Positions 11,825-20,990 of a stretch of DNA of 64,000 nt are shown one piece after another. This DNA comes from Pyrococcus sp. NA2 (GTDB lineage: Archaea; Methanobacteriota_B; Thermococci; Thermococcales; Thermococcaceae): positions 806,001 to 870,000 of the forward strand of contig NC_015474.1 in NCBI RefSeq assembly GCF_000211475.1, given 5' to 3'. The stretch's first letter is position 1. Every line of letters begins with the position of its first letter. A program made the position numbers and the translations under genes. The notes beneath the pieces are model-generated. The model did no database searches and was not told the origin of the DNA. It saw nothing but the letters and a program-made list of their open reading frames with translations.

Positions 11825-12349
11825 GTGGGGGTCGAGGAGGCTAAGAGAATAGTCATGGAGACATTTGCAAACACCGCTAGGAGACTTGGACAAAGTGAGC
11901 TCGTTGGTTACATTTATGGAGCACTGTTCTTGTCGAACGAGCCCTTGAGCTTGAGTGAGATAGCAGAAATAACGGGTTACTCAGTATCTCATGTGAGCTC
12001 GGCAATGAGGGTTTTAGAGGGTGTTGGTTTAGTTCAGAGGATAAAGAAGCCTGGTGATAGAAGAGCGTACTTTGTGGCTACGAAGAACTTCTCTGAGTGG
12101 AGGAGTTCTGCCTTCTATGAGAAGATATTGAGGGACATAGATGAAACGAGGAAGAATTTGAAAACGGCATTAGAGAAGCTTGAAGGAGAGCATAGTGAGG
12201 AAGCAGAGAAGATTAGAAAAAAGTTGGAGATCGCTTTAAAGAGAAATGATGTTGCAAGAAGGCTATTAACACTGATCATGAACTTCAAGTCAGAGGAGGA
12301 GCTCTTGGAACTCCTGGAGGAATGCCTTAGCAAAGGGAAGAAAAAGTGA
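11825..12349 (+). CDS. MarR/GbsR-like winged-helix transcription regulator
   Basis: The product is about 174 residues. Residues 25-85 form a winged helix: LSLSEIAEITGYSVSHVSSA is the helix-turn-helix and RIKKPGDRRAYFV the wing, as in the GbsR/MarR group. The remainder is a long amphipathic helical region (ETRKNLKTALEKLEGEHSEE, then LEIALKRNDVARR) suited to dimerisation. An in-frame ATG at 11807 lies at or before the expected RNA start; the GTG at 11825, preceded by GGGGGTTAGGGG, is preferred. It is divergent from the exporter operon and next to a palindrome, so it likely controls export in response to a small molecule. Confidence 0.8.
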   Translation: MGVEEAKRIVMETFANTARRLGQSELVGYIYGALFLSNEPLSLSEIAEITGYSVSHVSSAMRVLEGVGLVQRIKKPGDRRAYFVATKNFSEWRSSAFYEKILRDIDETRKNLKTALEKLEGEHSEEAEKIRKKLEIALKRNDVARRLLTLIMNFKSEEELLELLEECLSKGKKK

Positions 12350-12403
12350 TCAGCCAGGAATCCGGTCATCACACATCAGCATCGATGGCGCTCATCATCA
12401 AGG
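12347..12403 (-). ncRNA. Box C/D guide RNA (downstream of hisS)
   Basis: On the minus strand all four boxes are canonical and correctly spaced: C (ATGATGA, 12398-12392), a 12-base guide GCGCCATCGATG, D' (CTGA, 12379-12376), a three-base spacer, C' (GTGATGA, 12372-12366), a 12-base guide CCGGATTCCTGG, and D (CTGA, 12353-12350). Archaeal RNAs of this form direct fibrillarin to 2'-O-methylate the base paired five positions from the D or D' box, predicted here to be a G in each target. It lies 12 bases after the hisS stop on the same strand, so it may be processed from the hisS transcript, and touches the end of the regulator gene on the other strand. Targets were not searched. Confidence 0.85.
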
Positions 12404-17280: not shown

Positions 17281-17292
17281 TTTTTATATCGG
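17281..17292. promoter_or_regulatory. TATA box upstream of guide RNA
   Basis: TTTTTATATCGG places the plus-strand transcription start near 17308, just before the box C of the guide RNA. The same AT-rich block may serve the divergent acetyltransferase gene. Confidence 0.5.
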
Positions 17293-17308: not shown

Positions 17309-17365
17309 GAGATGATGAATCTGGAGCCACCTGACATGATGATGAGCTGTCCGCGGAGCTGAGAT
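17309..17365 (+). ncRNA. Box C/D guide RNA
   Basis: All boxes are canonical: C (ATGATGA, 17312-17318), guide ATCTGGAGCCAC, D' (CTGA, 17331-17334), a short spacer, C' (ATGATGA, 17339-17345), guide GCTGTCCGCGGAG, D (CTGA, 17359-17362). By the five-base rule the methylated bases would be a C in target GTGGCTCCAGAT and a G in target CTCCGCGGACAGC. Its own TATA box lies 25 bases upstream. The RNA ends two bases before the ATG of the coiled-coil gene, whose ribosome site GGAG lies inside the second guide. Confidence 0.88.
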
Positions 17366-17366
17366 C

Positions 17367-17645
17367 ATGCTCAAAGAGAAGCTTTGTAAGGAGTTCATTG
17401 AGGAAATTGAGAGGCTCGAGAGGTCAATAATTGAGCTTGAGGATCAGATTATAGAACTCAAAGCTCAACTTAGGATGAAAAATGAGGAGATAATAAACCT
17501 TGCAACTGAAAATGCTAACCTTAAGTATAAGCTGGAAAAGCTTGAGAAAAGGTACAACCAACTGATAGAGTTCTTAAAAAGGATGAAGATACCCTTTGTG
17601 ATTATCGATGAAGAAAATTTCGAGGATGACAAAGAAAACATTTAA
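17367..17645 (+). CDS. Small coiled-coil protein, unknown function
   Basis: The 92-residue product is a continuous charged coiled coil over residues 5-75 (heptad-like EEIERLERSIIELEDQIIEL, then LKYKLEKLEKRYNQLIEFLK) with an acidic tail (EENFEDDKENI). No enzyme motif is present; it may be a dimerisation or scaffold protein. The only ribosome site is GGAG at 17355-17358, eight bases before the ATG and inside the preceding guide RNA. It is followed 36 bases later by alaS on the same strand. Confidence 0.65.
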   Translation: MLKEKLCKEFIEEIERLERSIIELEDQIIELKAQLRMKNEEIINLATENANLKYKLEKLEKRYNQLIEFLKRMKIPFVIIDEENFEDDKENI

Positions 17646-17681: not shown

Positions 17682-20432
17682 ATGGAATTCATAATGAAAA
17701 CTAGGATGTTCGAAGAAGAAGGATGGGTCAGAAAGAAGTGCAAAGTTTGCGGTAAACCCTTCTGGACTCTAGATCCTGACAGAGAGACATGTGGCGATCC
17801 TCCATGTGATGAATATCAATTCATCGGCAAGCCAGGAATTCCAAAGAAGTACACACTTGATGAGATGAGAGAGAAGTTCCTGAAGTTCTTTGAGAAGCAT
17901 GAGATCTATCCTCATGGAAGGGTTAAGAGATATCCAGTCCTTCCGAGGTGGAGAGACGATGTATTGTTGGTTGGAGCAAGCATAATGGACTTTCAGCCAT
18001 GGGTGATAAGCGGTGAAGCCGACCCCCCAGCTAACCCTCTGGTAATTTCCCAACCCTCGATTCGCTTTACTGACATAGACAACGTTGGAATAACAGGGAG
18101 ACACTTCACGATATTTGAGATGATGGCACACCATGCGTTCAACTACCCAGGAAAGCCAATTTACTGGATGGATGAGACGGTTGAACTTGCATTTGAATTC
18201 TTCACGAAGGAACTTAAGATGAAGCCGGAGGACATAACGTTCAAGGAGAATCCGTGGGCCGGCGGTGGTAACGCGGGACCGGCCTTTGAGGTTCTCTATA
18301 GGGGCCTTGAGGTTGCAACCTTGGTGTTCATGCAGTACAAGAAAGCCCCTGAAAACGCTCCCCAGGATCAGGTTGTAATAATTAAGGGCGAAAAATACGT
18401 TCCGATGGAAACAAAAGTCGTTGACACTGGTTATGGACTTGAACGTTTAGTCTGGATGAGCCAGGGGACGCCCACAGCTTATGATGCAGTTCTAGGCTAT
18501 GTCGTCGAGCCCCTCAAGAAGATGGCTGGGGTGGAGAAGATAGACGAGAGAATTCTAATGGAGAACTCAAGATTAGCGGGAATGTTCGACATAGAGGATT
18601 TGGGAGACCTGCGCTATCTTAGGGAGCAGGTAGCTAAGAGAGTTGGGATAAGCGTTGAGGAGCTTGAAAAAGCGGTCAGGCCTTATGAGCTGATATATGC
18701 GATAGCAGACCACACCAAGGCCTTAACATTTATGTTGGCCGATGGCGTCGTTCCATCAAACGTGAAGGCCGGATACCTTGCGAGGCTCTTGATAAGGAAG
18801 AGCCTAAGGCACCTACGTGAGCTTGGGCTTGAGGTTCCCCTTGCTGAGATAGTTGCAATGCACATAAAGGAGTTACACAAGACGTTCCCAGAGTTCAAGG
18901 AGATGGAGGATATAATTCTCGAGATGATAGAGCTTGAGGAGAAAAAGTACGCTGAAACGCTGAGGAGAGGAAGCGACCTCGTTAAAAGAGAAGTTGCGAA
19001 GCTGAAGAAGAAGGGAGTAAAGGAGATTCCTCTTGAAAAACTGGTCATGTTCTATGAGAGCCACGGATTAACACCTGAAATCGTGAAGGAGATCGCCGAG
19101 AAGGAAGGGATAGAGGTAAACATCCCAGATAACTTCTACAGCATCGTTGCAAAGGAGGCAGAGAAAGGTAGAGAGGAAGAGGAGGAGAAGGAGATAGTTG
19201 ACTTCGAACTCGTAAAGGATCTACAGGAGACGAGAACCTTGTACTATGAAGATCCTTTCATGAAGGAGTTCACGGCAAGGGTCATCAAGGTAATCGGGGA
19301 TTGGGTTGTTCTCGATAGAACGGCCTTCTATCCGGAGGGAGGAGGTCAGCCATATGACACCGGAGTGCTGTTGGTAGATGGAACAGAGGTCAAGGTGACC
19401 AACGTCCAAAAGGTAGGCAGGGTGATCCTACACAAGGTTGAGAAGCCTGAGCTCTTCAGGGAGGGTATCGAGGTTCACGGAAAAATAGATTGGGATAGAA
19501 GAATTCAACACATGAGGCACCATACCGGAACCCACGTCCTGATGGGGGCGCTCGTTAGAGTTCTTGGAAGGCACGTGTGGCAGGCTGGTTCTCAATTAAC
19601 AACCGATTGGGCAAGGCTTGACATTAGCCATTACAAGAGGATAAGCGAGGAGGAGCTTAGAGAGATTGAAATGCTTGCAAATAAGATAGTTATGGAAAAC
19701 AGAAAGGTTACCTGGGAGTGGCTTCCAAGAACGGAAGCTGAACAGAAGTACGGGTTCAGACTTTATCAGGGTGGAGTAGTCCCTGGGAGGACGATAAGGG
19801 TAATAAACATAGAGGGCTGGGACGTTCAGGCATGTGGTGGAACTCACCTCCCAAGTACGGGATTGGTGGGGCCAATAAAGATACTAAGAACTGAGAGGAT
19901 TCAGGATGGTGTTGAGAGGATAATATTTGCCTGTGGTGAAGCTGCAATTAAAGAATGGCAGAAGGATAGAGAGTTGCTAAAGAGGGCCAGTCAAGTCTTG
20001 AGGGTCCCACCGGAGAAATTGCCTGAGACTGCTGAAAGGTTCTTCAACGAATGGAAGGAAGCTAGAAAAGAAGTTGAGAAGCTTAAGAAAGAATTGGCGA
20101 AGTTGCTTGTGTATGAGCTTGAATCCAAGGTTGAGAGGATAAACGATATTGAGTTCATTGGAGAGGTTGTTGAGGGTTCAATGGATGACCTTAGGGAGGC
20201 TGTTGAGAAACTTAGAAGGCCAAAGAGGGTTACGGTGCTGATAAGTAAAGAGGGATACTTTGCAGTGTCCGTTGGTGAAGGAATTGAGGTTGACGCTAGA
20301 ACGATAGCCAAGGAGATAACATCAATCGCAGGTGGTGGTGGAGGCGGTAGAAGGGAGATCGCCCAAGGTAAGATAAAGGAGGTAGGGAAGGCCAGGGAAG
20401 TTATTAAACATGTTAGAGAGCTTCTCAGCTAA
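17682..20432 (+). CDS. alaS: Alanyl-tRNA synthetase
   Basis: The 916-residue archaeal-type enzyme charges tRNA-Ala. An N-terminal extension has cysteines [12 protein letters not shown] and CGDPPC; the class II core has [20 protein letters not shown] near residue 130 and the motif 3 region GYGLERLVW near 250. The editing domain that clears Ser- and Gly-tRNA-Ala has [12 protein letters not shown] near 610 and the QACGGTHL ligands near 715. The C-terminal C-Ala domain ends in [21 protein letters not shown] before the ATG at 17682 makes that the best start; 17661 and 17694 are alternatives. Confidence 0.95.
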
Positions 20433-20933: not shown

Positions 20934-20990
20934 CCTCGGATAGGAGGGCCTTCATCATAGATCAGTGCCCAAAAGACTCCTCATCGGATG
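20934..20990 (-). ncRNA. Candidate box C/D guide RNA with variant boxes
   Basis: Minus-strand order: variant C (CCGATGA, 20987-20981), a 15-base guide GGAGTCTTTTGGGCA, D' (CTGA, 20965-20962), spacer TCTA, C' (TGATGA, 20957-20952), guide AGGCCCTCCTAT, and variant D (CCGA, 20940-20937). Lengths are exactly those of archaeal guide RNAs; the outer boxes each have a T-to-C change. A TATA-like TTTAATACC at 21010-21018 puts the RNA start at about 20987. The D' guide should be the active one if the outer K-turn is weakened. Confidence 0.55.

Follow-up and report, generated by a model that had tools for sequence, protein, structure and literature searches.

A box C/D guide RNA abutting a conserved coiled-coil gene in Thermococcales, with the gene's putative ribosome site at the end of the D guide

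The window, a stretch of 64,000 nucleotides from Pyrococcus sp. NA2 (NC_015474.1, positions 806,001 to 870,000; genome G000, 1.86 Mb in one contig), contains a small guide RNA placed directly in front of a protein-coding gene. The elements of this arrangement are as follows, the boxes having been read from the sequence.

17281-17289, + strand: TATA-like box TTTTTATAT, about 23 bp upstream of the expected RNA start near 17310
17310-17364, + strand: box C/D sRNA sR23 (Rfam RF01138, 60.4 bits against a cut-off of 45)
17312-17318, + strand: C box ATGATGA
17319-17330, + strand: D' guide, 9 bp with the anticodon arm of tRNA-Trp, C32 at +5
17331-17334, + strand: D' box CTGA
17339-17345, + strand: C' box ATGATGA, with an overlapping copy at 17336
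17346-17358, + strand: D guide, with a weak, tentative 8-bp match to tRNA-Trp 40-48
17355-17358, + strand: GGAG, with which the D guide ends, the proposed Shine-Dalgarno site, 8 nt 5' of the ATG at 17367
17359-17362, + strand: D box CTGA
17367-17645, + strand: conserved coiled-coil ORF of 92 codons (92 aa), beginning with the ATG at 17367
17682-20432, + strand: alaS, alanyl-tRNA synthetase (Pfam PF01411), the next gene; start at 17682 likely

The RNA shows the marks of a box C/D sRNA: a covariance score above the cut-off, four boxes with two guides, and, for the D' guide, complementarity to tRNA-Trp that puts C32 in the +5 register. As the first-pass annotation stated, it ends two bases before the ATG of the coiled-coil gene, the Rfam match stopping at 17364. 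That annotation also held that the only GGAG lies inside the D guide; the motif is indeed there, but it is not the sole copy, others occurring at 17292, 17308 and 17323, none of them at ribosome-site distance. A separate promoter between the RNA and the gene, which would have undone the earlier reading, is ruled out for want of room, just 4 nt being available in the window. The TATA-like box is likely to be a promoter common to the sRNA and the mRNA; in a crude AT-box scan of 88 genomes, 41 showed such a box 26-36 nt upstream of the sRNA and 20 showed none. Two more C/D sRNAs lie in the window, sR5 (12349-12401, - strand) and sR47 (20934-20988, - strand); no ORF of 60 aa or more begins within 10 nt of the D box of either.

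The coiled-coil ORF was found in 85 of 94 Thermococcales genomes by a search with a profile built from 13 members, and in a genome-contig search all 17 loci with a named source came from Thermococci. Comparison with Pfam and NCBIfam gave nothing above the cut-offs, just coiled-coil noise below them, and the AlphaFold2 model is a single long helix (residues 2-72, mean pLDDT 88). Of 16 pairs, 14 had unsaturated dS, and in these dN/dS was 0.025-0.27, which indicates that the ORF is under purifying selection. The protein is conserved and, in view of this selection, very probably made, so that the leader is not simply a silencer.

As to the targets of sR23, the D' guide is nearly invariant and forms 10 bp with positions 29-38 of tRNA-Trp, C32 at +5, in 85 of the 88 genomes examined (G003 and G093 were not parsed, and the window's own guide forms 9 bp). 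For this comparison tRNA-Trp was located in 8 genomes, and the other genomes were set against one of those sequences. No shuffled guide in 3000 was as good as the consensus, and 2 in 3000 equalled the window's own. Other tRNAs were rejected as D' targets, none being as good among 44 distinct tRNAs in a set without tRNA-Trp, and rRNA was rejected too, neither guide having a convincing match in the expected register (16S-23S stretch, 16 genomes). C32 of tRNA-Trp is thereby the predicted address of the D' guide, and sR23 gains a concrete predicted target. Methylation of this base by the C/D machinery was predicted for P. furiosus and, according to passages of PMC7668247, was undetected in the tRNAs analysed there. 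The 8 bp between the window's D guide and tRNA-Trp 40-48 abut the D' target; 118 of 3000 shuffles did as well, and this second target is tentative. In the window's genome the intron of tRNA-Trp is itself a C/D sRNA (Rfam sR40; L268, 13249-13309, + strand, G000:C1:1183249-1183309), and tRNA-Trp would therefore be served both by its own intron and by sR23.

The arrangement noticed in a single genome proved to be conserved in relatives. A match to sR23 exists in 90 of 94 Thermococcales genomes, some of the matches being weak; from 91 loci three weak or secondary ones were removed (G009 and the second matches of G016 and G058), which left the 88 examined. An intact ORF lies 2-12 nt downstream of the D box in 75 of these 88 genomes with full-length sR23, and as the gene is real and on the same strand, sR23 belongs with the C/D sRNAs that abut gene 5' ends. 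Kept in so many genomes, and with low dN/dS in the ORF, the arrangement is more than chance. The distance from D box to start is 5 nt in 59 of the 75, 12 nt in eight, 4 nt in four, 6 nt in three and 2 nt in one. In that last genome, G045, the conserved Met comes 18 nt later and has a G-run of its own in front of it, and we scored this genome as not dependent on the D-guide site in the counts given below. In the eight genomes with 12-nt spacing (g2, g5 and g6) a GGTG lies between the D box and the ATG, 6 nt short of the latter, and therefore offers another possible ribosome site. In 64 of the 75, alaS lies downstream of the intact ORF in the same orientation.

The remaining 13 of the 88 genomes either have no ORF next to the sRNA or have one that is broken or displaced. 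The gene and the sRNA are parted in G007, G008 and G010, G009 has the gene without a full sR23 match, and other DNA lies between the two in G029, G041, G067, G069 and G076. Seven of nine separated genes have a purine-rich site of their own (-6.3 to -11.3 kcal/mol with the 16S tail); in G007 and G008 such a site is absent, an AT-rich box stands close upstream, and the gene looks leaderless. Conversely, the sRNA is intact in G087, where the gene has decayed, and in G078, where it is absent. The sRNA can therefore do without the gene, and the gene can persist without the sRNA given another start signal. The remnant of the coiled-coil gene in G087 (L081) still lies just behind the D box. In G076 (L024) sR23 stands beside an internal piece of an AlaRS-like gene, with the coiled-coil gene 3.5 kb further, possibly through a rearrangement or an assembly fault. 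Both sR23 and the coiled-coil gene are missing from G068, a genome listed as 99% complete.

The end of the D guide was then compared among genomes with respect to GGDGRD, the ribosome-site consensus reported for T. kodakarensis and T. onnurineus (PMC4247193, PMC5316973). Where the start codon lies 4-6 nt after the D box, as it does in 66 genomes, the D guide always ends in GGDG; of the 22 others, 12 have this ending (Fisher p 1.4e-7, to be read with the genomes being related and independent events few). The conserved element is GGDG and not GGAG, most genomes having GGGG and four of the window's genus GGAG. The best duplex of the GGAG region at 17355-17358 with the 16S tail reaches -8.7 kcal/mol; for scale, the median is -8.35 kcal/mol at the first ATGs of 38 long window ORFs, and the value for random 18-mers is -3.1 kcal/mol. 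The A at -2 from the D box in G000, G004, G005 and G006 loses the pair with C39 of tRNA-Trp, and genomes with this A pair better with the 16S tail (median -9.7 versus -7.6 kcal/mol).

The base at -1 is informative in another way. Where it is G, it opposes A38 of tRNA-Trp and is unpaired; T, which pairs with A38, takes its place in G008 and in all seven g5/g6 genomes examined, and A does so in G007 and G010. Ten genomes lack the G: six have GGTG behind the D box, in three the gene and the sRNA are apart, and in G087 the gene is decayed. The -1 G is thus lost only where the gene does not depend on it, and this happened in about three independent events, an rRNA tree of 16 genomes separating G008 from G007/G010 with moderate support. 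Further upstream, at positions -5 to -12, five to seven of the eight guide bases have changed in three lineages (G048; G059; G054/G064) while GGGG is unchanged.

Published data on T. kodakarensis bear directly on the fate of this site. The counterpart there is sR46 (alias Tko-sR50), listed as circular in Table 1 of PMC9014305, with a transcription start at 1371720 and a circle at 1371729-1371790 (+/- 5), which begins 9 nt after that start; the small-RNA set gave 176,232 aligned reads and 188 circular ones. The circle coordinates of that paper fall on C/D sRNAs in our genome G023, probably T. kodakarensis, where 23 of 25 stretches could be read and two were masked. The start codon of the coiled-coil gene in G023 is at 1371787-1371789, 67 nt downstream of the transcription start, and the primary T. 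kodakarensis transcript is therefore not leaderless, leaderless meaning a 5' UTR of 0-8 nt. The sR46 circle takes in GGGG and, as printed, even the AUG, with a junction uncertain by 5 nt on either side, and in this species the prediction that processing into guide RNA removes the ribosome site holds. Section 15, Table 1 and the searched passages of PMC9014305 contain no discussion of start-codon inclusion that we could find. Three more of the 23 circles (sR29, sR52 and sR61; L283 940146-940209, L290 1476851-1476917 and L292 2070055-2070116 in G023) end between -5 and +2 relative to the ATG of an ORF that has 60 codons or more. In these three a GGTG lies behind the D box, inside the circle and not in the guide; among the 16 G023 sRNAs with a CTGA D box, inspected by eye, sR46 only has GGDG directly before it.

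Comparison among genomes establishes, at the level of sequence, the arrangement, its conservation, the coding constraint, the match to tRNA-Trp, and the restriction of -1 G losses to genomes whose gene does not depend on that base. Building on these, we think it probable that guide RNA and messenger are alternative products of one transcript with a shared leader, in which GGDG would act as the Shine-Dalgarno site. One promoter would give a transcript with sR23 as its 5' leader and the coiled-coil mRNA as its body, usually with alaS behind, and GGDG, which closes the D guide 8-10 nt upstream of the start codon, would presumably be the site used by the ribosome. Assembly of L7Ae, Nop5 and fibrillarin on the leader, followed by trimming and often circularisation, would yield the guide RNA for C32 of tRNA-Trp. 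Such processing would carry off the ribosome site (in T. kodakarensis apparently the AUG as well) and put an end to the message; if the ribosome bound first, the same transcript would be read as messenger, so that each molecule would become either a guide or a messenger. From the geometry and the published circle we infer that the two fates are mutually exclusive and that the sRNP would exclude the ribosome from the leader; both uses of the transcript find support in the sequence record. A report, cited in the review PMC7994747, that 5' overlap with a C/D sRNA lowered reporter expression fits such competition. The end of the D guide would then answer to two partners, the tRNA target and the 16S tail.

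The pattern could also come from plain economy, the gene borrowing the promoter of an sRNA whose GGDG is kept for guide pairing and by a base preference next to the D box, with no specific use by the ribosome and no meaning in the coupling. C/D sRNAs at gene 5' ends are a known minority, with 5' overlap in 7% according to passages of PMC7994747 and 11 in 5' UTRs among the 69 verified T. kodakarensis small RNAs of PMC4247193, and GGG at -2 to -4 pairs with C39-C41 of tRNA-Trp. A G also precedes the D box in 7 of 13 Rfam C/D sRNAs, sR23 included, sampled from 464 kb of the window's genome, and it is retained at -1 in 9 of the 13 genomes without an adjacent intact ORF, which counts against conservation driven by the ribosome. 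The full GGDG directly before the D box occurs in that sample only in sR23 itself. Plain economy, however, has difficulty with a -1 base that does not pair with tRNA-Trp and is nonetheless G in 66 of 66 genomes, with guide bodies rewritten around a constant GGGG, and with an A at -2 that weakens the guide. We regard this explanation as unlikely.

Processing might instead create a leaderless messenger: an endonuclease cut immediately after the sRNA would produce an mRNA whose leader, 0-3 nt long, has no Shine-Dalgarno site, and both products would come from one molecule. Such a cut would suit the 66 of 88 genomes in which 4-6 nt separate the D box from the start codon, leaderless mRNAs make up 12-14% in Thermococcus (PMC4247193, PMC5316973), and the leaderless look of the separated gene in G007 and G008 points the same way. 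This would leave the conservation of GGDG unexplained, and the printed end of the T. kodakarensis circle lies past the AUG, albeit with a margin of +/- 5 nt; we consider a messenger of this kind very improbable. Competition for a shared leader, which we prefer, raises the question of whether the split is controlled. By analogy with the l7ae leader, a partition regulated by L7Ae is a fair hypothesis, though neither a constant split nor plain economy would give a different picture. A bolder version makes the leader a decision point, where sRNP assembly would sense the supply of L7Ae, Nop5 and fibrillarin or the need for tRNA-Trp modification and so set the level of the coiled-coil protein, possibly of AlaRS too, with the guide evolving under both tRNA and the 16S anti-Shine-Dalgarno tail; this is speculative, and we hold it to be rather doubtful.

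What is new here is the order-wide conservation, the conflict at a single base, the natural separations, and the start-codon reading of a published circle. If the shared-leader reading is right, sR23 would be a natural case in which one transcript chooses between modification guide and messenger, under an evolutionary conflict that shows in individual bases. T. kodakarensis, being genetically tractable, would allow a test, and the answer would help to settle whether C/D sRNAs at archaeal gene starts are regulators or passengers. Our literature search found no paper on a ribosome site within a guide, nothing on sR23 in Pyrococcus, and nothing relevant on sR23 in combination with archaea and methylation.

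C/D sRNAs in T. kodakarensis 5' UTRs are known, and cis-regulation has been suggested for some of them in general terms (PMC4247193). Like those described there and in PMC7994747, sR23 would head an mRNA from a shared promoter, with release by processing presumed; it differs from them in that the D guide's own end is the putative ribosome site, in an arrangement that extends across six genera with signs of conflict between guide and ribosome. The circular C/D sRNAs of T. kodakarensis (PMC9014305) include, at the position of sR23, the circular sR46. The l7ae mRNA leader (PMC5539422, PMC6298567) likewise places an L7Ae-binding k-turn next to, or overlapping, a Shine-Dalgarno site at the start of an archaeal mRNA, and by its sequence sR23 would be a candidate leader of this type, a predicted k-turn element lying by the putative ribosome site and the C/D boxes flanking GGDG. 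The l7ae leader, however, consists of one k-turn stem-loop, belongs to a protein feedback loop and was tested with reporters, whereas sR23 is a full two-guide C/D sRNA with a predicted tRNA target of its own, placed in front of an unrelated gene.
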